Positions 1-63,766 of a stretch of DNA of 64,000 nucleotides are shown here, one piece after another. A program made the translations under genes and the position numbers. Every line of letters starts with the position of its first letter. Position 1 is the stretch's first letter. Below the pieces are notes generated by a model. It made no database searches and was not told where the DNA came from. It saw only the letters and a list, made by a program, of their open reading frames with translations. The stretch is taken from assembly GCA_037447655.1 (NCBI GenBank), contig JBBHKE010002122.1:1-64000 (forward strand), given 5' to 3'. Source of the DNA: Zygnema cylindricum. Taxonomy: Eukaryota; Streptophyta; Zygnematophyceae; Zygnematales; Zygnemataceae.

Positions 1-153
1 CGGGGAGAGGAGAGAGAGAGGGGAGAGGGAGAGAGAGGGGAGAGGGGAGAGAGAGGGGAGAGGGAGGGGAGAGGGAGGGGAGAGAGAGGGGAGAGAGGGG
101 GGAGAGAGAGATAGAGAGAGAGAGCGAGAGAGCGAGAGAGGGAGAGAGAGAGG

Positions 154-192
<39 letters not shown>
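1..192. repeat. GA-rich microsatellite directly after the lipid-kinase exon 9 donor
   Basis: The tract is (GA)n with GGGGA interruptions. On the gene's sense strand it is CT-rich and begins at the donor itself: the exon ends AAG and the intron starts GTCTCTCTCT at 192. Confidence 0.9.
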
Positions 193-7654
<7,462 letters not shown>

Positions 7655-11351: not shown

Positions 11352-14300
11352 ATGGCGGATGATCTTACTCCCAGAATATCTCCTTTTCTTGATCGACATC
11401 TCGTCTTTCCTTTGTTAGAGTTTCTTCAAGATCGTCAAATATATCCCGAAGACGAGATCTTGAAAGCAAAAATTGAACTTCTTGGAAAGACAAACATGGT
11501 TGACTATGCTATGGACATTCATAAGAGCCTGTATCACACTGAAGATGTACCTCAATGTAATGTTTTACCACCTTTTTTCTTTTATGTTACCTTTTTTCTT
11601 CTAATTGATATGATTTCCTTAAAGATATTCATGATGAAGATGCCAGAATTCATTTCGATTTTGGGGGTTACAGGCAAACTTTTGGTTTTTCCTGTGAGGA
11701 ATGTGACCTCTCTTACCAAGTTTTCTCAGGAAATCGTTTCACATATTCATTCTTTTTAAAAAAAATTGAATGCCACAGAGCCTTAATCAGGGTTTTGAGG
11801 TTTTCTGCAAGGCTTTTACCAAGGTATTTTAGGGTTTTGTTTGAAATACCTCTTTTTCTTTAGATGCTTTCTTTTTCTTTTTCTGTCACAGAGCCTTAAT
11901 CATGATCAATTTTTTCTAGGTTTTCTGCAAAGCCTTTTTCAAAGTTTTTCTCTATGGCAAAATTAGCAAGGGTCCAGGTTTTACTTTACCAATTATTTGT
12001 TTGATAGTTTGAAAGGAGTTAAAACCAATTTTGTTCTGTTTTAACTAAATCGAATGTTCTACCACATCCGACAGAACTTTTCATAAGTAATAGTTTCAAT
12101 AATAGTTTCATTTTTAGTTTTTAAATTTTATTTTTTTTGGCATTAGTTATTTAGATTACAGTATTTTGAGGAAGAGGTTTATGTGAATTCCTCAATACTT
12201 TCAAAAAGAGAAGGAAAAACTGAGGCAAAATTTGCGCTTTTTTAAATATAGATTGTGGTACAAAATTGTTAAAGCGTAGATAATGTTTCTAAACGTCTCT
12301 TGCAAGAATGACTTAGGAAACTTTTATCCAAAATTTAAAATTTTAGTATGACAAACGGCAATCAGTTTTTTAGTTATCTCTTATGTTTTTTAGAAACAGT
12401 TTCTTTTATATGGTTCGTTGGAAAGCCTTTGAATTAGAAATGAACTTTCTGATGTAAATTTTTGCGATCTTTTGCGTACACTTGTTTATCTTGTACTGTA
12501 ATAAAGATTGCTGGTTTTTGCTCAAAATGTTGGGAATTGCTTATGTTTGAAATAGAATTGCTGGATTTTTATTCTGCCGAAATAGAGAGTGTGGGGTTTT
12601 CCTTCTACGGAAATATGGAAATGAGGTTTTTCTTATACTGAAAGATCGAATGCTGGGAATTGCCTATCCTGGAACGTGAAATATTGGTTTTTGTTGTACT
12701 GAAATGTAGAATGTTAGGTTCTGCTCAAAATGTTTGGTTTTGCTAATACTGTAATATTTAATTTTGTGTTTTACTCTAATGTTGGGAATTGCTCGTTCTG
12801 AAATATAGAATGAACTAACTATACATATTCTATATATATTGCTCGTTCTTTTTTTTATTTTTTTTGGGTTTTGGCAGCCATGGTTGACAGGAGAGCGGAG
12901 GTGGTCGGCCGTCTGAAATCGTTAGAAGAGGCGGCCGCCCCTCTCATCAGTTTTTTACAAAATCCCACCCTCGTACAGGAGTTACGGCAAGACAAACAGT
13001 ACAACTTGCACATGCTGCAACACAAGCATCAGGCAGGAACCATACGTTGACTTCTTTTTTTTTCCAAGGTTTTTGCTGTTAACATGGTTTTTATTGAACT
13101 CTGTGTTTGTTTTGTACGGAGAACCTACATATAGCGTTTCCAATTCCTTCGGATTATGCTATGAACCCCTCGTCGGTTTTTTTGATAGGCTTCATTCATA
13201 TGATTAGGGTTTGTGAAAACGGCTTCATGGGTTTTAGGAAAGGTTTGGTTGACTTAAGTGCTTCCTATTCTCTATAGAGAGAGAGATGCAGTGAGTGGGG
13301 TGAGAAAATTGAATTAGTCAGGCAGTGGGAACTGGTCGAGTAAGGATTTGGAGTGGTATATTTGGTTTAGAGAAAAATTGAAGCGGTTATTTTAAAATGT
13401 GATAGCTTTTACTAGCACTGGTTCTGTTTGTGTGAAATTCTTTTGTTTTTCTTGGTTTTTTAGGGTTGTAGGATATGTTTCTTTATCTTATGTGCGTTTA
13501 GAGGTGGGAACTACCTTGGCTGTTGTTTGCACTGGTTACTGCAAGTTTTTTTTATTGACCTTTTTTCCTTTTGAGTAAAAATTCATATAGTGTACATAGC
13601 CCATCTCTACTAGAGTTAGTGAATTTTAAGTGCCCAGACATCATTGGAATTAACTACATGCACGTGGCTCATTATGGACCACTTAATTAGAAAGTGTTAT
13701 CAGGAGAAACAAGCACTTGAATTACAGTTATTAACTCTATTATTAGTGAGGCAGTGTACATCCTATCTAATGCATCTTATGCTGCATTTAACCTTGAAAA
13801 GATGCACCAGAATATTGTTCTCGCCACCAATACCAAAACAAAGAACTGCCCAAAAAACCATGTGGCTGATTTCAATCTACTCTATGGAATTGTGTTGTTA
13901 ACACATTATTTTTGGCCAGAAATAGGCGCGGCCAATTTAGAGTTATAAACACAAATAGCAATAGGCAATGTATAAGTTCTTCATTTTACTTCGTGAATCA
14001 ATTAGTAACATTTGTTATGTGGCTTATAGCGTGAAGTTCCCAGGACATGTTTCTCTTTGGAGTCATTTGAGACACAAATGATGATTTGTTAATCATTTTG
14101 ACAACATTGGTTCCTTTAACAAACTGTTGAATCCTAAATCATAAAAATATTGTTGGATGTGTCTTGGTGTTACCAGATAGGTGAAGAACAAATTGAGGCC
14201 CTTTACCATTATGCTAAGTTCCAATTTGAGTGCGGAAACTATTCTGGAGCTGCCGACTTCTTGTACCAATATCGTACTCTATGCACAAACAGCGAGCGTT

Positions 14301-17300
14301 CGGTATCCGCATTGTGGGGAAAATTGGCGGCAGAAATTTTGATGCAAAATTGGGATGTGGCTGTGGAGGAGCTTAATAAATTGAAGGAGATTATTGACTC
14401 CAAGGTGGGTTAGTATATGGCAACTAAATCAAAAGAGTTTCTTGACTCCCAAGGTGGATTTGTGAAAAGTTAAGAAATTGAAGGAGATTATTGACTCCGA
14501 GATGGGTTAGTGGAAGGTTTTTGTGGTCATCAACACGAAAGGATGAGGGGTTTATTACTCTGCATAGAAATGCTTTGTGGTGGGATAGCTTTGTTGCGGG
14601 ATTACTTTGTGGATTTAGTTTGAGCTTATATGTTGGATTTTAATGCTTGAGAATGTGGTGTCTTTTTTTTATATCGCTATAGAAGTGTTCTTTTCAAACA
14701 CCGGTTTTGATAGCTGTGACGACACATTGTCAACAGATGATTCTAATGGGCCTCTTCGATTGGACGATATCAGTTGTTTAAAATTGTGCATTTAGCTTAA
14801 TGAATCGTTGTATGTGATTTGTGAATGGAGTACAGAACTTTGCGTCACCCTTGGAGCAACTTCAGCAGAGGACATGGCTCCTCCATTGGAGTTTGTTTGT
14901 ATACTATAACACGGACAACGGGAAGAACGGTCTGATTGACCTCTTTTTTCAAGAAAAGTAAGTGCTGCACCGTATATCTGTTTTCTTTCATTTTAATATT
15001 ATGGAATTTCTGATGTTCTTGGAAAGACTCATATACCTGCTGTTGTGTCTACTGTTAATTAACAATTCACATTGAATTTTTTGTCGTTACACTATTTTTT
15101 GTAGGTATTTAAATGCGATTCAAACCAATGCCCAGCACTTGTTACGCTATTTGGCTCAAGCTGTTCTGACCAATAAGAGACGGCGTAATATGATTAAAGA
15201 TCTAGTGAAGGTCATCCAGCAGGAGAATCATTCACACAAGGATGCGATCAGTGAATTTGTAGATTGTCTTTTTATCAAGTTTGACTTGGACGGTGCACAA
15301 GCGAAGCTTCGAGATTGCCAGGAGGTAAGAAGGCTACAAGGAAGTGGGGAGGGAGAGGGAGAGGGAGAGGGATAGAGAGGACTTTCATTCAGCGTGTCTC
15401 TGACTTATAGAGGCAGGTAAAAGCAGAAGAGATTGTCTTTTGTATGTGGCCATCAAATCTCCCTCTCGGCTGTGAGGCCCTCCTGTTTTTAGGCCAAATG
15501 CTCTCAAGGTTGAACTGTAAGATTCAATCATATCTCTATGATTTTTAGAAACGGTGAATAAAATAAGGCCAGATGAATAACGTGTTTTTTTCAACTAGTA
15601 TAACTCTCACTCTTTCACATTTATCGCATTAGCCTGACCAGAGTCCCACGCTTTTGCTAGTGTTTTTTTTTTTTTTTCTTTCAGACAGCTGATATTTTTT
15701 CTGGCGAATTGCTGTTTCTTGTTTGCTGAAGAACAATTATCTAGTGTCCCTGTAGTTTTTCCGTCTTCTTCCATTGGGATCTCAGTTTAGAAACTCTGTT
15801 TTACAACTCTTTTGTCATAAACAAAGAACCTCTAGGAAGGTTTTGTGTGAATGGTGCTCTACACTGCCCACTGCTATTATCGTTAATAACACTAATTTCT
15901 TGTATTTATTGGCTGTAATTCATAAGTGTCAATAACACTATCTAAGGTAGTGGCCTTAAATCAACCACGTCACTCTGCCCTTAATTAGTATTGTTTCTTC
16001 TAATTTCTCGTTAAAACTAATAATTCCTGAATACTAACAGTGATGGGCATCATACTATCGCTGGTTGGCAAGTTAAATCAGAAGCTGTTAATATGATAAT
16101 TCATATCCAATCTTCTTCTTGAGGATTTGGTTGGAGAGATGGCAAACGAAGAACTTTAAATTTTTCTTGGGATGGAAGGAAGATCCTTTCTTAAGATTTT
16201 GTCAGTTTTATGTGGTTTGTGTTGCAGTTATTGGCCAACGATTTCTTTCTAGGAAAGCAAGTTCAGGAAAACGGATACACCGCAATGCCATTCCGAGACG
16301 AGTTTTTGGAGAGTGGACGCCACTTCATTTTTGAAACCTACTGCAGAATTCATCAAGTTATTGACATCAGGTCAGAATATTATATTATATTATATTTGGA
16401 CTGATTCAGAGTTCTTTGCTCATATCATTGTTTTTACTGCTATTGTTTTATTGCCCTACCTCTCGAGAAGAAGATTTGTTTAGTACAGAGTCAGTAGGTT
16501 TTTATGTGGTTGCATCTGTTTACTTGCATGACTTTTCATAAATGAGTGACTGGATATTGACATTCATTAGAGAGGCCTGAATTTTGAGTTTGATGACCTT
16601 GTAAATGGTATTATAAGGGAGTACTAGTATTGGTTGAATAAATACCAGTTATTTTGCATTTGGGGGAGCCCCCGCTGGAAATTTTATGACGATCTGGAAT
16701 ATACAACGAATCTTTATTGAACTGTTAAAAGTGTTAAAAGGGTTATGTTAAAAGTTCAAGCACCTGGCTCATACGGGACACGCCATCATTTTTTAAGTTA
16801 GTGAATTATTAGCGTTAATGCTTTCATAAAATCAACTACACTACATTGCATTTGAAAAGGCTGGCTTATCATGGGCCACTTATTTAAATAGTGTTATCAA
16901 CATTATTTTACAATTTTGGGTCGAGGAAAAAACCACTCACCCAAATTAGAGTGATTAACTCTAATACCGGCCGGCAGTGTACTGTTTTAAAAACAGTAAA
17001 ATATTTAAGCAGTAAACTATTTAAAACATTTTTTGGGTTTTGAGTGGATGCAGGATGTTGGCAGATAAGTTAAACATGATGCAGGATGCTGCCGAAAGAT
17101 GGATCTTAAATTTGATTCGAAACTCGAAACTCGACGCAAAAATTGACTCGAAAGCTGGAACTGTCGTGATGAACACCCAGCATTCCAGCGTGTATGTTTT
17201 TTTTAACCTTTTCCTTTCCTTCTCATTTTCCTTTCCTTTCCTTTTTCTTTTACTTTTCCTTTTTGTTTTCCTTTTCTTTTTTCTTTTCCTTTTCCTTTTC

Positions 17301-18239
17301 CTTTTCCTTTTCCTTTTCCTTTTCCTTTTCACCTGTTTTTTTTGCAACTCTTTTTGATTTTTATAGAACCAAGTGGTTTTGGGATGCCATGAGTGAAACT
17401 GAGGATTGGTGAGTAGAAGTGAAAAATCTATGAAGGTTTTGAAGTTTTTGTGGTTGTTTTTTTGGTGGGTCAACGAATTGTGTTTGAGTGGGAGAAGGAA
17501 AGGAGAATGGGAAAGAGAAAAAGAGGTGGAGAGAGAGAGAGAGTGAGAGAGAGGGAGAGGGAGAGAGAGAGAGGGAGAGAGAGGAAGCGAGCAATACATC
17601 ACGAGTCAAATTCACTTCAACACTAAGCTGCAGGAATGTATGCGGTAGGATATCGATATAATACTATGAAAGTGAAACATTAACCTCGTAACAATTCTAA
17701 AAGAAAAGTCTTGACATGTCTTGAAATCAGTGTTGAAGCATAGTATGCGAGTCAATAGAGAAAATTTATTTTCTTGAGTTTTTTTAAATTGTTTCGTTTT
17801 TTATTCCCAGTTGTAAACTAGTTGGTCTTTTTCCATTAACTCTTGAAACTTTCTCGGGATCACTATAAACTATCCACCTTAATTTTGAGCAGTTTTTGTG
17901 CAGTTTTTCTTTCTGAAAAAACCTAAAAGTTTTGGCTTCTAAATTCCCATTTTATCGTACACTTTCATAACCTGTTTCTGAAAAACCCTGAAATCACCTT
18001 AAAACCCTAACAAACCCTTTTAAACCTAGATAAACCGTAAAAACTTCAAAAAACTCCTGAAAAATCCTTTACAATCCCTCCAAACTAACTTAAAAAACCC
18101 TACAGAACCCTAAACTGAAATATGTTTGTCCACCTGCAGGTACGAAACTACGATTGAAAAAACAAAGAATCTAACCGCGAGAACGTACCAACTTCACAAC
18201 AACATAATGACGATCGCGATGCCTTTGACCACACAGTAG
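11352..18239 (+). CDS. EIF3E: Eukaryotic translation initiation factor 3 subunit E (eIF3e/INT6)
   Basis: This is a subunit of the cytosolic eIF3 complex, which loads mRNA on the 40S ribosome. Its PCI domain docks it in the eIF3 octamer. The nine exons are 11352-11556, 12878-13032, 14177-14404, 14836-14957, 15105-15324, 16228-16370, 17054-17191, 17367-17408 and 18140-18239. They total 1353 nt, or 450 residues plus stop, close to the roughly 440 usual in plants. Hallmarks are [20 protein letters not shown] (residues 15-34), [63 protein letters not shown], and [19 protein letters not shown] in the C-terminal PCI winged helix. The C-terminus ([14 protein letters not shown]) also fits the family. 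The start is the first ATG of exon 1, in CAGCCATGGCG context. Intron 2 has a GC donor. GA- or CT-rich tracts lie in introns 5, 7 and 8. The gene appears intact. Confidence 0.97.
12480..12830. repeat. Degenerate repeats of about 50 bp in eIF3e intron 1
   Basis: Variants of GAAATAGAATTGCTGG, GTTGGGAATTGC and GGTTTTTGCT recur about every 50 bp. They have no coding signal. Confidence 0.55.
15345..15375. repeat. GGGAGA repeat just after the eIF3e exon 5 donor
   Basis: A (GGGAGA)n tract starts about 20 nt after the GTAAGAAGG donor (15325), sense strand purine-rich. Confidence 0.75.
17198..17340. repeat. CTTTTC pyrimidine repeat in eIF3e intron 7
   Basis: (CCTTTT)n starts within about 15 nt of the exon 7 donor and fills most of this short intron. 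Open frames in it are Phe/Leu/Ser repeats and not genes. Confidence 0.85.
17505..17590. repeat. GA-rich tract in eIF3e intron 8
   Basis: GAGAGA/GGGAGA runs lie 100-180 nt after the exon 8 donor. Confidence 0.8.
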
Positions 18240-20543: not shown

Positions 20544-23500
20544 NNNNNNNNNNNNNNNNNNNNNGTACTAACCAACAACTAAGGATTAGAGTGCACACCT
20601 CTGTTTTTTAAAACAAAGGAAACTAATTCCACATGTATGAAAGAACAAGGAACCGTGAAACCGGTGTTTCAGCACTCTCATACAATCTGGGAGCTTGTTT
20701 AACACTTACACAAAGGAACTTAAAACAAGCGTGCATGCAAATGACAAACGAAAAAAAAAAATGGATTTTCAAAACTATGTTTAACCACATGTTATTTTGT
20801 TTTTGATGGTGTTTTTAATCCGTGTTTGGTGTCCTCCAACTCTATGTTTACCATCTAAAAGTCTTACACGAAAAAGCAGAACCATGGTACAAACATGCAG
20901 GTAAAAGAGGAAGTAAATAACAAAACAAGTTACTATACATGTTTAAAAGAACTCGATTGTCTCCACACGTGAGATTAGGAATCAACAACCAATCATGTTT
21001 GAATGCTCTCGTACCATCTGGAGGACTTGCACAACATAACCTCCTCTCGTCCTCATGGGCCACATCAAGACCGATCATCCAGGAGCCCAAAGACACGTCT
21101 TCGTTCATATACTCGTGCAGCATCTGCCTGCAGCAGTGGCAGCACAGTCAAAATCGTTGTCGTACAAAAACGACGACAACTATTAGCTTAGAAAAAAACG
21201 CCAAGTGTTGTCGTAGAAAAGGAAAACGATCATTGTTATAGAAAAGGACGACGATCATTGTCATAGAAAAGGACAGACAAAATGTCATAGAGAAAGACCG
21301 ACAACCAGCATTGCAAAGAATATAACTGTGATTGGTGTCTCGGATGACACGGAGACAGTTGGTTAGTAATTTCGTTTTATACACAACTGTTTGTAATTTT
21401 GATATGCGCAGACAAACCCTTGAAACTCCTTGACAAGAAAACCTTGAAACTCAATCTGCATTTGGTGCCTGTCATTGTCAACTAATTACAAAAGCAAATG
21501 ATCCGGAATATTATCTCTCAATTCAGTACTTTTCTTTATGAGTCTAAATTTGGCAAGCATTGTCAAAAGGGTGAACCTATCAGCCAACCCACTTGTTAAG
21601 TGCTAAACATTGTCATTTGAGGAAGCTATACTTCTCAAAGGAAAACGGCCGAAATTGAAAAAAGTGAAACCATAAATGAATAAATTTGAGATACAAGTCT
21701 GGAACAATATACAGTTCTCGAAAAGGTCTTAACACTAGATAGGTTATAGGACCATAGGGAGGTTAGCTTAAAATTATTGAACGAACCTAAGGAAAAAGCC
21801 CAGTTCCAACTGCTTAACCCATCTCTCAATAAAATTATCGGGGATTTAAAGGAACTGTCTTGCGGCACAAACTAGACTAATCATGCTTACTACCTTGAAA
21901 ACTTTTACTAGATTTGGATACTGATGTATACATTAAAATGGTGCGAGGGAGGTGCTGTCCCACTCCGGAGAAATACCTGGGCTATCCAGTCTAAGGAAGG
22001 GGTCGAAAAAGGCAGCTGAGGAAAAGGCAGGATAAGAACGTAGTTGAAAAAGGTCGTATGGGAGGGAGGAAACGAAGTATGTGAGGATAACTACTTAAGA
22101 TCACAAAATTTACGGAATGAGAAATACAAAGCTGTCCTTACTCCGGAACTCATACAGCCTAAGAGCTTTCATATTTGAAAATTCTTTGTGATACATATGA
22201 CTGCAGAATAAAAGGCAAAAACAAAACAATGAAATATGTCGAATAAATCAAACGTGAAAAGACAGGAACAATCCACCACTATGAGAGTGGATTCTGATAG
22301 CATGTTGCATAACCGTGTTACTAATTCAAAAAAGGTCATATGAACAGTTCTACAGAATATGGTCAGGTGGGTTGTGTGCTCCACTTATGTTTAGTATTAA
22401 ATAGACATTAATCTCCTTAGAGCTATCTAAAAACCTAGCACCAAATTTGTTGGAGTGTGACAAAGATTGCTGAGAATTGAACAGCCAGCCTACCTGTTAA
22501 TAGAGATGTATAAAGCGAGTGCCCTGGATAATGCGTATATTTGGCCCGTGGCATGTCGGAAATAGCTGCACAAAAAGACAAAACCAGTCAAGTCAGTCAC
22601 TTTTATCAGCAGCTTTTGTCTGTCATTTTTGTCAATTCCAGTTTTCTGAAACTGGAAGCTTGCATCAGAGGAGAAAGATAATAATTTTCAAGATAGAAGT
22701 CCAAGCAGTTAACTACAGACTATGGGCACGGCTGTGAGTGCCAAATTCCCGCTTCCATTGTGACACTGATAACTGCCATGATTGTGGCTTTCGTTACCAA
22801 AATGGGCATTTCTACAGACCTGATAACATTTTCAGCACATTCTTAAGAAATTTACCTATTTCGTAAATATCTGCACGGATTAGCAATCAGAATGTACTAC
22901 ACATCTACAGTACTGAGCATTTCTAGAAGAACTATGAATGTGCAGAAATCGACACACCTATTCCAATCACTAAAACTTACATGTGACCACATTATATACA
23001 TATTTGCAGCATTCATCGCACAAAATATGTTTTATATCAATTGCTTCCTAATACATCCTTTCACTATGTTTATTGTAGACAGACTACCAGATGAGAAATC
23101 AGTATGGAAACTCGTCCATGCCGTTTCACTTCTGTCATTTAGGGCCTGCATGAATGCTTCTGGTGGCTAATTCGTCGTACATATTACTGCAGTTCACACT
23201 AATATTCAGGTGAACTTCCTAAAAGCAGTCTTTGACACGATATATACAGGCTAATCGTAGTAAGAGGCCACCTCCAATCATGTTTTTGTGTTGTTAAAGA
23301 AATAAGTGGTTTCATTGCAACATATGTACATGATGGGTTTTTGCACTTACTATTTGGCATCGCCAAATTTCCACCACTCCGGCTCATGCCATCTTTGGTT
23401 CCTGAAAGAAAAAACGAATCATCATGTTAGAAGCTATTTCTGGTGATAAACATAAGCAAACACAAAGGTCAGATTTTCAGAATGTGCTAATAGGTGATCA

Positions 23501-57540: not shown

Positions 57541-58748
57541 ATGCAACGTGTTGTGGATAGCGTTGTCGGTGTTGCAAAAGAGTAAGTAGTTTTTTTCTTC
57601 TTTTCTTGCTATTTTTTTTCCTTACTTTTTACTTGTTGTTTTTTTCTGTTTTTCTGTGTACTGTATTGTGTATTTATTTTTTGGATTGCATTTTTTTTTT
57701 AGTGTGAATATACTGTTTTTAGTCAGGCTACACTGGAATATAATTTTTTTGTAAAATAATTGCAAGTCTGACTTTCAGTGAAGAGCAGAAAACTGTTGTT
57801 TCTAATGGAACTTAATGAAAAATGGCACAAAATTGACAAACTTTGTAAGTTCAATATTCAAATTGTAAAATATGTGGTTTCAAATTTGTTTTTTGCGATG
57901 GAGGTAAACAATTTGCATGCATGGCGGTTTTCTTTCTGAAACTAGCCCAATTTGATTATATTTTTTTCAATCTTGTAAAAGAAAAAATTAAAAAAAGGAA
58001 ACAAGCAGAATGATTAACAATATTGTGCACTGCCTCTCAAACCTGCCCTTTTCCATACAATGCCGCCAAAAACCTCTTAAACAGTAATTTTTAGTATTAT
58101 TATTATTATTATATATTTTTTTCCTGCTCATAACTTTTTTAAAGGTTTTGCTAAATCGTTTTTAGCTTTTTTCGATAGTTTTTTTTTTTGTTGTTGCTGT
58201 TTCTTTTTTTCAGGTTTTGCTACTTCTGAAATTTTTCTTGTCCTTGCTATCTTGTCTGTCGCTGACGTCGAAACCGTGTCCAGAAAGATATTTTAATAAT
58301 GTATTCAACACCATTTTTTTTTCTTGTTAATTTTGGTAATTTACTTATAGGCTTTGTTAAGTTTATTTTTAGGTTTTGTTTCTCTCCTCCATCTTGTATG
58401 TTGCTCATACCACAGGAGGGAGGGCTTTAATAATGTATTCAACCCATTTTTTTTTGTTTTTCTGTTTATTTGTGTTTTTTTGGCCTCAAGGCTGTGAAAA
58501 CTGTTATCAGAGACCCCTACAAAATTTTATTAACACCATTTTTTTTTTCTTTTGGGCCACAGGGCTGTCAAAACTGTTACTAGAGAGGCCTTTAATAACG
58601 TGATCAACACTGTGAATGGAGCCTCGGCCCTTGCTCTCGATCTCGTGCCGGGCAAAGCCAGCATTGTGGAAGGCCTCAAAGGATGGGAGCTCCGCCCGAC
58701 TTTTAAAGCTCCTCGCCTGCCACGGTGGATGGAAGAGTGAGCTTGCCC

Positions 58749-58805
<57 letters not shown>

Positions 58806-59106
58806 CGTGGATGGAAGAGTGACCTCACTTGCCTCTCTTTCCCTCTCTATCTCCACCCCTTTCTCTATCCCTCTCTAGCTTGCCACGGTGGATTGAAGAG
58901 TGAGCTCGCTCTTCTCTCTCTCTCTCTCTCGCTCTCTCGCTTGCCAAGGTGGATGGAAGATTGAGCTCGGTTTTCTCTCTTTCTCTCTCTCTCCCTCTAT
59001 TGCCACAGTGGATGGAAGAGTGAGCTAGCTCGCCTCTCTCTTTCTCTCTCTCCCTCTTTCTCTCTCCTCTCTCTCTCTATTGCCACGGTGGACGGAAGAG
59101 TGAGCT

Positions 59107-59166
<60 letters not shown>

Positions 59167-62100
59167 CCTATTGCCACGATGGATGGATGAGTGAGTTTGC
59201 TCGCCTCTCTCTCTCTCTCTTTCCCTCTCCCTCTCTCTCTTTTCCTCTCTCCTCTCTTTGTTTGCACCTTCTCTTCTCCCTCTCCCTCTCACCTTCGCGC
59301 CAGGTGGATGGACGGTGAGCCTCTTCTCCTCTCTCCCTCCCTCTCTTTCTCCTCCCCTCTCTCTCTTGCCACAGTGGATGGAAGAGTGAGCTTGCTCGCC
59401 TCTCTCCCTCCCTCTCCCTCTCCCTCTCCCTCCCCCTACCTCCCCCTCTCCCCTCCCTCCCCTCCCTCCCCCTCTCCCCCTCTCCCCCTCTCCTCTGCCC
59501 CCGAATAACCCAGAAACAAGTGATTGGTTTATGAAGTGAGCAAAAATAGCCTATCTATTAGAGCAAAGAATGACTGACTATTGTACCAAATTGCCTGTGG
59601 ATGAGATTTCTGGCGTGGTGATATGTATGTGTTTTGTTCTTTAGTGTCATATTTACATCACAAGCATAATCAATAAAGTTATGCAGTACCCGATGTGCTT
59701 TTCTTCAGTGAACATGGAAAGGATTAATCTTTTTAAAAACTATATTTGTAGAAGTGACATAGGTTGATGGCTTCTTAAGTAAGTCCCGTTCTTAGTCAAA
59801 CTTATCAGTATATTTCCTAACTATGTACTCTTTGTGTGCACTGTTCTTTTTTTTTCGCTACCGGAGCAGTTTACATTTTTTTTTTTTGTAAAGATCTGTT
59901 TTAGTCAGTCTTTTATTCTCTGCCCTTTTTCTGTTTTTCTGACTAGTAAACGTCTCAGTTTGACCTAAACTTGGCAAGAGGAGAGAGTAGCTTTTACTGT
60001 CAGAAATAACTTTGATCTGAAAATTTTGTTTGCAGTGGGGTTTCTTCTCTGAACTTCATTTACGATGACTCAGATTCAGACGTGGATTCAGCGTCAGGAT
60101 ATGAATCAGGAAAAGAAGAGTACTTATCTATGCCTCCCTCTCCCTCTTCCACAATGTCTTACCACTCTGGTGGTAGTCACTACTCTCCTGCCAGTTTGAG
60201 ATCACGACATCATCATCCGAGAGGATCCACTTGGTTACAATTTGTGCGACGTGTTTTTTGGTTTTTTTTCTGGCCTCTGGCCTTTCTGTTCCCTCGAAGA
60301 AATTCTCACCGACGACGTTTTTCTCATAACAGTGAGGGAGCTCCTCAAGAATACTTTCCAGCAAGTAGTGTCCCTCTCAGTCGCTCGAGTAGTAATACAA
60401 GTTTGAGTCGACACTTCTCCATAGCGAGTCACGAGTTGAGTAAGCGGGTGACAGACGTTTTGGAGTATGTCAATCATTTGAATGATAACCGAAGGAGAGG
60501 CATTATTGAGGTAAATGGCCTTTTTTTTCTTTTTGTTTTTGGTGTATGGTATGGTTGATGCTCCACTCTCTCCACACTCTCCACTCTCCCCACTCTCTCC
60601 ACTCTCTCCACTCTCTCCACCCTCTCCACCCTCTCCACCCTCTCCAACCCTCTCCACCCTCTCGAGGCTATTGTACAAAGCACGTGTTTTAGCAGTTGTT
60701 TATAAACAGTAAAATAAGGGCTACTACTTCACTTAAACCTTCCTTAAACTTTCCTTGATGCTGTCCTTTTTCACCCTTCACATTCTCCATCATATTATCT
60801 GATTCACGGTTTTTACCGAGATTTTACAGGACTTACAACTTCTCATGGAACTGTCTATTGATCGAGTATTTGAGACTGTCCGAGGGATTTTACATTCCCC
60901 TTTTAACAGTATGGGAGCTCTAGTAGATACTGTACTGGGAAGATCACCTCCAACACCGGTTCAAAATACAGTTGTGGAAACAACAACTTTGGGAGATAGT
61001 CGTTCGAGCCCAAAACAGAGAGTCATGAGACTCTCGGAGGCTCTCAATATGGATGCTCGTACATGTGAAGACATCGTCACAGATGCAGGGTGAGTCGGGA
61101 GAGGGAGAGGAAGGGAGAGGGAGAGAAAGGGAGGAGGAGAGTGAGAGGGAGAGGGCACGGATGCAGGGTGAGTGGGGAGAGGGAGAGGAAGGGAGAAGGA
61201 GAGTGAGGGGAGAGAGAAAAGATGTTTGGAGGCTCTCAATGCCTGTACATGTGAAGACATTGTCACAGATGCAGGGTGAGTGGGGAGAGGGAGAGGAAGG
61301 GAGAAGGAGAGGGAGAGGAAGGGAGAAGGGGATGGAGAGGGAGAGGGAGAGGGAAAAGATGTTTGGGTATTGCTGTCTAGCTTTGGTTTTTGCATGCCGT
61401 TACAATGCTTTATTTCTTTAATTTTTCAACTAGTCTAGTGAGAACAGAATAGTTGTCATGGATGCAGACATGTAAGTGTTTACATTCTAGCAATTTGACT
61501 TTACCATATTTTATGAGAGAAGTCAATTTTTTTCTATTTCAGCAGAAAATAAATTGTAGTTGTAATCAACTTTGTTGTATGAGAGATTTTTTTTTTTTTC
61601 GATTTCAGGGGAAATAAATTTGTAGTGTAATCAACATTGTACGGGTTTGCTCTCCTGACAGATATCCGTTTGAGGCAATTAAGGTGACAACTAAGGATGG
61701 TTATGTGCTTACACTCGAACGAATTCCGAGGTAAAGCCCATTCTGAAAGTCCTATCTTTGATGAGCTGAGATTTAGAGCTGGTTGGAATAATATAAAAGT
61801 AAAGCAAATAGGGTTCCAATTGCCTTTTTATGTTTGCAAAGGGAACCAAGCGGGTGGGAGAAAATATGTTGGCTGGTATAGAAGTGAATGTATGTAAAAA
61901 AAGTGGAATAAACGTGTTGTTGAATGGAGTCTGATTAGAATAAGTGGTTGGGTTGGGATGATTTCTAAACAGGCGTGATTCGAGAAAGGTGGTTTTGTTA
62001 CAACACGGAATTCTGGACAGTTCTATTGGGTGAGATTCTTTCCTTCTTTGAACAGAGTTCAAAAGAGGTTTGATAACACGTGCTGCGATTTTATTAAAAC

Positions 62101-63766
62101 AAGATTTAATTTCCATTAAAAAAATGAAGATTGTTTTTTGTAATGTTGGGTATTGAGGGCCCCTTGCCGATATTCGATATGTACTTAAATTTGGGTACCC
62201 GATGATCGATATATCGAGGAACTTAATATCGCGATATTTCTGCGATATATCTGCCGATATATCGCTATATTTCAATCGCGATATATCGAAGTGACGCTAG
62301 GTCAATTTTTTTTCCCAAACCCAACACACACCCCCCCCCCCGGGCGCACGCTCAGTGGGGGGGGGGGGGAGGGGGGGCAAAATTTTCCGTATTGGATCTG
62401 TACGGACACCCACCTTGTACCAAATATATCGCGTATCGAGGCCTCTGACCGATCGATATATCGAATATCGAACTTATCGCGATATGATTTTACCCGATAC
62501 CCAACATTAGTTTTTTGAATCCACTTAATTGATAATGACTTTCTAGAAAACAGACGCTCTCTAGAGCTTATTTGGTACTATTGCGAGAGTTTTTTTGCAG
62601 TGGAATAATAATGATAAGCATATGGACTCTATAGCAACAATAACAAAAACCCTATGGACCTTATAGCATGTACCTAAGGGAAAGGAAAGGGTGTCAGTGA
62701 CAAAAACTCTCTGGACTTTATAGTATGTACCTAAGGGAAAGGAAAGGGTGTCAATAACGGAAACTCTATGGACTTTATAGTATGTACCTAAGGGAAAGGA
62801 AAGGGTGTTGGCGTGGTACTGCAGTTGGGTTTCTAATGGAGTGGTGGGATCGCAAGCTTTTGCCGCTTATGATCAAGGTAAGCAATGGTTTTAATGACAG
62901 CGATTTTCTTGGGATACAAGAAAAAAACAAAAAAAGAAACGGTTGAAGTGAAGTGTTTTTTTTTTTTCTTTTTCTTGGCTTTTTTGTTTCGTGGAGCTTC
63001 AAATGGATCGTTGTCTCTTTTCAGAATTTAATTGCACTTGTAAAAGCGATGTGGATTTCATTGTTTATAGTTAAGTTTTAAGCGTTCAATCGGATTTTGT
63101 TTTATTTTTGGTTAGCAGTATAACGAGGAACTTTCTGTGATTCTGTTTTCTCCTCTGATGTCTGTTTGAGTCTCAATTGTTTGATCGGCGATTTTGGAAA
63201 ATGTTTTTCTCCTTTTTATTTTTTATCTTTTCCCCCCCGGTTGTAGTTGAACTTATAACTGAGTTCTTTTAGTAGAACAGATTTATGAAATTTGTTTTCC
63301 AGACGCCTGTGCTGTTTCGTTCCAATGCTGTACCTGTCTGAAATTGAGTTATGTGACTGCTAGAAATAGTGAGAGTAGATTACCAGATTTTGTTATTTTC
63401 GGTTTGCTTGGCGACACTGTTGTGTTTCCTTTTCATGTTTCCATTTTTTGATGGTTTTTTTGTTCTGTAGAGAGGGACTTTTTGCAAGTTATAGGAGCAC
63501 ATGCAGAGCATTTAAAAACACTAATTTAGTTTGGTGTTTTCTTGACCCTGGAATTGGGAATATTGTCACAAATGCTATTTGATGTTAATAGTCATGTTAA
63601 TGGTAGTAGGCTTAATTCGACCTCGTCACTATTGATTCCTCCATATATATCGGTGTTTCTGACTCGAGGAATGCTGTATGTCGGATACAGGATTTGATGT
63701 TTGGTTGGGAAATATGCGAGGATACGTGTCTCGGGAGCATGTAAACAAAAAAGTTTCTGCACAAGA
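57541..63766 (+). CDS. Plant lipase, alpha/beta hydrolase (At1g73920/At1g18460 type), 3'-truncated by window edge
   Basis: This gene is predicted to be an acid-lipase-like ester hydrolase with a long plant-specific N-terminal region. The eight exons are 57541-57581, 58563-58736, 60036-60510, 60830-61089, 61662-61730, 61973-62029, 62825-62877 and 63691-63766. They give 401 residues in frame. The N-terminus MQRVVDSVVGVAKE, VPGKASIVEGLKGWELRPTF and LPRWMEDGVSS match the family. A Ser-rich linker and the hydrophobic segment VFWFFFWPLAFLF (145-157) follow. CEDIVTDAGYPFEAIKVTTK (about 309-328) opens the lipase-associated domain. LLQHGILDSS (348-357) is the oxyanion-hole motif, followed by NGVVGSQAFAAYDQGFDVWLGNMRG. 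The nucleophile GxSxG and the rest of the triad must lie beyond 63766; the family is near 700 residues. Introns 2 and 4 carry duplicated splice donors, and intron 6 holds a hAT-type MITE. Confidence 0.93.
58718..59505 (+). repeat. Minisatellite of exon 2 end + splice donor + CT tract, about nine copies
   Basis: The end of exon 2 and its donor (CCACGGTGGATGGAAGAGTG, then AGC) recurs near 58801, 58880, 58941, 59000, 59080, 59171, 59299 and 59366. Copies are separated by (CT)n. Most copies keep GTGAGC or GTGAGT. Spacing is about 60-130 bp. A pure CCCTCC tail follows to about 59505. Confidence 0.92.
59506..60035 (+). other. Rest of lipase intron 2
   Basis: AT-rich intron sequence ending TTTGTTTGCAG at the exon 3 acceptor. 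No further structure is seen. Confidence 0.7.
60562..60664. repeat. CTCTCCAC minisatellite in lipase intron 3
   Basis: (ACTCTCTCC)n changes to (ACCCTCTCC)n, starting about 50 nt after the exon 3 donor. Confidence 0.85.
61036..61355 (+). repeat. Duplicated exon 4 end + splice donor with GA tract
   Basis: The exon 4 end (GGAGGCTCTCAAT...GTGAAGACAT...CACAGATGCAGG then GTGAGT) recurs as a short copy (ACGGATGCAGGGTGAGT, about 61157) and a long copy (61228-61275). Each is followed by GGGGAGAGGGAGAGGAAGGG. Confidence 0.93.
62141..62509. mobile_element. hAT-type MITE with poly-C/G core, copy 2 (369 bp), in lipase intron 6
   Basis: TAATGTTGGGTATTG faces CGATACCCAACATTA. The 8-bp duplication GTTTTTTG is exact at 62133-62140 and 62510-62517. 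The interior has CGATATATCG palindromes and a C12...G14 inverted core. It is related to 30312-31009. Confidence 0.92.
62646..62810. repeat. 57-bp tandem repeat, three units
   Basis: ATGTACCTAAGGGAAAGGAA at 62668, 62725 and 62782. It lies just before the exon 7 acceptor in lipase intron 6. Confidence 0.9.

Follow-up and report, generated by a model that had tools for sequence, protein, structure and literature searches.

What does a splice donor do when it has been copied many times down its own intron? This question is raised by intron 2 of a lipase gene, where the sequence-only reading had proposed that the copies act as a series of donor decoys, or that their number tunes productive versus non-productive splicing. 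The gene lies at the end of the analysed window, a stretch of 64 kb with a GC content of 39%. Its predicted product of 401 residues is truncated by the window end and matches the Pfam family Abhydro_lipase (PF04083, E = 1.3e-17). We take the locus to be plant-like because Arabidopsis-type lipases have a similar N-terminus. One scan of viral contigs with the lipase gave nine pattern matches and no relative. The gene model and the features around exon 2 are as follows.

57541-57581, 58563-58736, 60036-60510, 60830-61089, 61662-61730, 61973-62029, 62825-62877 and 63691-63766, forward strand: lipase gene model with eight exons, a spliced open frame
58482-58513, forward strand: diverged copy of the exon 2 start, in intron 1 on the acceptor side, found by alignment (junction match 22 versus 8.5 +/- 1.1 in shuffles)
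58563-58736, forward strand: lipase exon 2 (original), ending in CGGTGGATGGAAGA, with an open frame spliced into Abhydro_lipase PF04083
58737-58742, forward strand: intron 2 donor GTGAGC, taken as functional; it belongs to copy 1, the original, which starts at 58717
58750-58801, forward strand: pure (TC)26 tract found by TRF, from position 14 of intron 2
58799-58832, forward strand: copy 2, donor position 58819, GTGACC (weakened)
58880-58913, forward strand: copy 3, donor position 58900, GTGAGC
58941-58974, forward strand: copy 4, donor position 58961, TTGAGC (GT lost)
59000-59033, forward strand: copy 5, donor position 59020, GTGAGC; by eye, an acceptor-like CACAG behind a CT tract
59080-59113, forward strand: copy 6, donor position 59100, GTGAGC
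59171-59204, forward strand: copy 7, donor position 59191, GTGAGT
59297-59330, forward strand: copy 8, with small deletions, donor position 59315, GTGAGC
59366-59399, forward strand: copy 9, donor position 59386, GTGAGC; by eye, an acceptor-like CACAG behind a CT tract

The copied unit joins the final ~20 nt of exon 2 to ~10 nt of intron 2. Repeat search, TRF and direct comparison recovered eight further copies of ~30 nt up to about 59400, with CT-rich spacers between them. This agrees with the earlier description of an exon end and its GTGAGC donor copied about eight times together with CT repeats. The distance between copy starts ranged from 59 to 126 nt, and the CT-rich tracts differed in length and purity. 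When the donor junction of exon 2 was compared with the first 900 nt of intron 2, its top score was 28, versus 7.9 +/- 1.0 in dinucleotide shuffles, and no shuffle scored as high (0/200). GTGAG is intact in six of the eight downstream copies, in line with the earlier count of at least six; of the other two, one differs at the +5 base but retains GT, and one has lost GT.

The start of exon 2 is also copied upstream in intron 1, so exon 2 has seemingly been copied outward on both sides. Degenerate copies of the exon 2 start were seen by alignment at 58240-58562 in intron 1. By eye, an AG placed like an acceptor stands ahead of the copied exon tail in three copies (59000-59019, 59297-59314 and 59366-59385). 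Each of these copies is a possible exon of 11 nt with its own donor, and by a hand count the three together would add 33 nt in frame. The open frame of the lipase requires no extra intron between the array copies.

Misassembly over the CT repeats could have inflated or scrambled the array. CT tracts are difficult to assemble; the exact CT tract lengths are less reliable, and 21 N at 20544-20564 end another GA tract. However, the copies have substitutions of their own, and three separate junctions in the window look alike, one of them without a microsatellite. The mutual divergence of the array copies makes a simple assembly collapse or expansion less likely. Overall, we regard an assembly artefact as very improbable.

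Nineteen GT sites were tested between 58737 and 59500, and the frame stays open into exons 3 and 4 from the first of them alone. Reading through this donor confirmed the in-frame GAG-TGA that had been pointed out. It had also been claimed that the use of any later copy would bring a stop; a stop after residue 72 was found for all 18 alternative GT sites in this range. Use of a downstream donor is therefore predicted to yield no protein isoforms at the sites tested. These stops would suit a decoy or tuning array, in which later donors compete for U1 and the copy number sets the productive fraction through the products that end at residue 72.

Donor strength was scored with a position weight matrix trained on the remaining 28 modelled donors, so that every one of these 28 sat in its own training set. 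The first donor of lipase intron 2 scored 5.79, the eighth lowest among the 29 modelled donors. Five array copies scored 5.79 to 5.92, the GTGAGT copy 5.30 and copy 2 only 0.23; copy 4 has no GT. All six GTGAG copies are thus close to the first donor, which also speaks for competition. Because five later copies are as strong as a low-ranking first donor and a sixth comes close, leakage to later copies is plausible. Against the idea of an array built for competition, the GT at 59779, outside the array, scored 8.56 and beats all array donors; another outside GT in intron 2, at 59536 (5.92), also beats the first donor. Since array copies and outside GTs match or exceed the score of the first donor, intrinsic strength does not single it out. 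Presumably, it is singled out by its position and by the upstream exon sequence.

An immediate stop is common among the donors of this window. A total of 21 donors of the lipase, eIF3e and DAGK-like genes were read through, with the eight donors of the partial GT31 model excluded. At seven of the 21, the first in-frame stop ended at most 4 nt into the readthrough, and all seven were at phase-2 junctions. There, the donor itself (GTGAG or GTAA type) forms G/TGA or G/TAA. This indicates that GAG-TGA is a trait usual for donors of this type rather than something designed into the array.

The eight downstream copies were then compared with their majority sequence. Changed sites numbered 3/48 in the donor hexamer, 15/160 in the exon tail and 9/32 after the donor. 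In this small test of 48 donor sites, the donor hexamer was not detectably better kept than the exon tail (Fisher P = 0.77). Intact GTGAG was observed in 6/8 copies versus 4.9/8 expected at the exonic rate. There is no sign that the copies are under constraint, though the test was small. The higher variation after the donor would also fit a decaying copied unit with ragged ends. In addition, GT was lost in 1/8 copies of lipase exon 2 and in 1/2 later copies of another array, in the eIF3e gene. Given the unexceptional conservation of the donor bases, the frequency of early stops and the stronger GT at 59779, the proposal of a decoy series or of tuning by copy number found no support, and we consider it quite unlikely.

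Donor duplication is not unique to lipase exon 2; it also occurred at lipase exon 4 and at eIF3e exon 3. The comparison covered 29 modelled introns from four genes, seven each in the lipase, eIF3e and DAGK-like genes and eight in a GT31 galactosyltransferase. The junction models were based on the open frame, GT-AG ends (GC-AG in one case) and matches in Pfam or the PDB. Three of the gene models (lipase, GT31 and DAGK-like) are partial, and DAGK-like exon 3 has a weak acceptor. The eIF3e model matched eIF3_N in Pfam (E = 1.1e-51) and five solved eIF3e sequences, four of them with E about 1e-141 and the fifth with E = 1.2e-28. The DAGK-like gene matched DAGK_cat (E = 1.7e-27) and the GT31 gene Galactosyl_T (E = 2.8e-37). 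A candidate eIF3e exon of 42 nt (17367-17408) was dropped; it fell in a gap in three alignments with solved eIF3e, and the frame closes without it.

Intronic copies scoring at least 20 were found for 3 of the 29 donor junctions, namely lipase exon 2 (28), lipase exon 4 (30) and eIF3e exon 3 (30). At the acceptor junctions, the only such case (1/29) was the start of lipase exon 2 (22). Matches below this cut-off were found at the acceptor of GT31 intron 8 (13; 0/200 shuffles as high), the donor of GT31 intron 5 (12; P = 0.02) and the acceptor of DAGK-like intron 2 (10.5; P = 0.015). The two further donor arrays are as follows.

61053-61370, forward strand: lipase exon 4 donor array, exon end and GTGAGT in three copies with the original, GA-rich spacers; GGTGAGT starts at 61089, 61167 and 61275
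14373-14520, forward strand: eIF3e exon 3 donor array, exon end and GTGGGT (14405), with copies GTGGAT (14454) and ATGGGT (14502, GT lost)

GTGAGT was kept in both later copies of the lipase exon 4 array. No microsatellite was found in the intron of the eIF3e array. The alignment with solved eIF3e sequences is ungapped over the exon 3-4 junction, and hence homology indicates that eIF3e also splices from its first donor. Taken alone, TRF put just two junctions inside arrays, the donor of eIF3e exon 3 and the acceptor of DAGK-like intron 4; the lipase donor arrays were detected by direct comparison. GT31 intron 6 contains a tandem duplication that excludes the donor.

To place these counts against a background, local copies scoring at least 20 were found for 72 of 927 complex intron 34-mers (taken every 11 nt) and for 39 of 1155 outside genes (taken every 23 nt). 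The background is somewhat generous because the lipase arrays are counted in the intron figure, neighbouring samples are non-independent, and the samples were searched on both sides but the junctions only into their own intron. The probability of at least 3 of 29 donors was 0.07, 0.21 and 0.40 at assumed rates of 3.4, 5.5 and 7.8%, respectively, 5.5% being a chosen value. With 3/29 donors in four genes, donor duplication was not significantly above the intronic background of local duplication. At these probabilities, donors are not shown to be more duplicated than other intronic sequence.

We believe that the exon 2 array is probably a passive minisatellite in a genome rich in repeats. A segment with the final ~20 nt of exon 2, the donor and the adjoining CT tract would have gone through several rounds of tandem duplication, which the CT repeats most likely seeded through slippage or unequal exchange. 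We propose that duplications starting at the donor are tolerated because the original donor stays in use and the extra copies are intronic. The extra copies would then decay inside the intron. The mRNA would use only, or mostly, the first donor, and any mis-spliced product would be cleared by nonsense-mediated decay. The like events at the donors of lipase exon 4 and eIF3e exon 3 agree with this, and so does the open frame, which among the tested sites is left by the first donor only. Two findings count against it: the near-equal scores of the six later GTGAG copies (five of them at or above that of the first donor), and a skew of short-period repeats towards donors, which is unexpected from a process blind to splice sites alone. 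If the array is only passive, it provides a clear natural case of near-equal serial donors with an open frame from the first alone, and it could be used to probe spliceosomal choice among equal donors.

To measure this skew, TRF repeats with a period of 2-12 were counted in the 60 nt at the start of each intron (leaving out the first 6) and in the 60 nt at its end (leaving out the final 6), with the introns of 115 and 147 nt excluded. Such repeats were present on the donor side in 12/27 introns and on the acceptor side in 2/27. Randomly shifted repeats gave a mean of 6.3 (P = 0.001 for the donor excess and P = 0.008 for the acceptor deficit). When any one of the four genes was dropped, the P value of the donor excess ranged from 0.0002 to 0.037. 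With slightly different limits, the counts were 12 on the donor side versus 1 on the acceptor side of 28 introns.

These data raise the possibility that donors are hot spots of repeat growth in this genome, so that introns lengthen from the 5' end and the donor is sometimes copied along; this would be compatible with a passive array. Three strong donor copies versus one acceptor copy point in the same direction as the skew. However, the skew is a post hoc observation on four genes of one window, and in GT31 no repeat of period 2-12 was found within 60 nt of any of the eight donors. It was also weaker at period 2-500 (12 versus 5, P = 0.037) and at period of at least 19 (6 versus 3, P = 0.16). 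Constraint on the branch point and acceptor could instead clear repeats from the acceptor side. According to a survey of 31 plants and green algae, tandem repeats concentrate at intron ends in a U shape over both (PMC3887541). Our data share with that survey the repeats near splice junctions, but differ in the skew to the donor side, seen here in four genes only. We consider growth at donors possible but rather unlikely. If it does take place, a route of intron growth could be counted genome-wide.

The readings may also be combined. The 5' splice sites of this lineage would then be foci of repeat growth that give rise to donor arrays of equal strength, leakage from them would be harmless through the immediate stop, and the copy number in the lipase would set a measurable unproductive fraction. 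We regard this combination as improbable.

A minisatellite that provides multiple splice donors has reportedly been described by Turri et al. in 1995 for the human 6-16 (IFI6) gene. The kind of array is already on record, and IFI6 is its closest precedent. The earlier remark that such an expansion is not known as described, made for this gene family, can stand at most for that family, given IFI6. Two downstream repeat units of IFI6 act as splice donors (PMC4526556). As in IFI6, the units of the lipase array carry splice donors for the adjoining exon, the array starts at and includes the functional donor (functional by the open frame), and most units keep the donor consensus. Unlike in the lipase, where the tested downstream donors would lead to an immediate stop, the downstream copies in IFI6 are used and encode different isoforms; such isoforms are a trait of IFI6 rather than of minisatellites at large. 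The lipase case also differs in its plant-like gene, as we take it to be, and in its larger, CT-spaced units.

In potato, a tandem duplication over an exon-intron boundary is reported to have made a new intron (PMC4974935). The two cases are alike in that a tandem duplication in a plant gene, or a plant-like one, spans an exon-intron boundary and splice signals are copied along. In contrast to the acceptor-side junction in potato, which gave a new intron, the lipase array points only to a longer intron, with no new intron or exon indicated. Among the matches listed, judged by title and abstract opening and with only one query naming lipase, no report of a donor array in a lipase gene was found.

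Several minor observations were made in the window. Many donors in the DAGK-like, eIF3e and lipase genes are soon followed by CT, GA and other short repeats (1-4400, 15349-15372, 17207-17330 and 60561-60663). By eye, the DAGK-like gene, on the minus strand, has a possible exon end near 193 that is directly followed by GT(CT)n. At 12878-13032, exon 2 of eIF3e has an apparent GC donor (CAG/GCAGGA), which would make the intron GC-AG. Between 33700 and 48000 there are several reading frames that we take, from their translations, to be Copia-type retrotransposon polyproteins.
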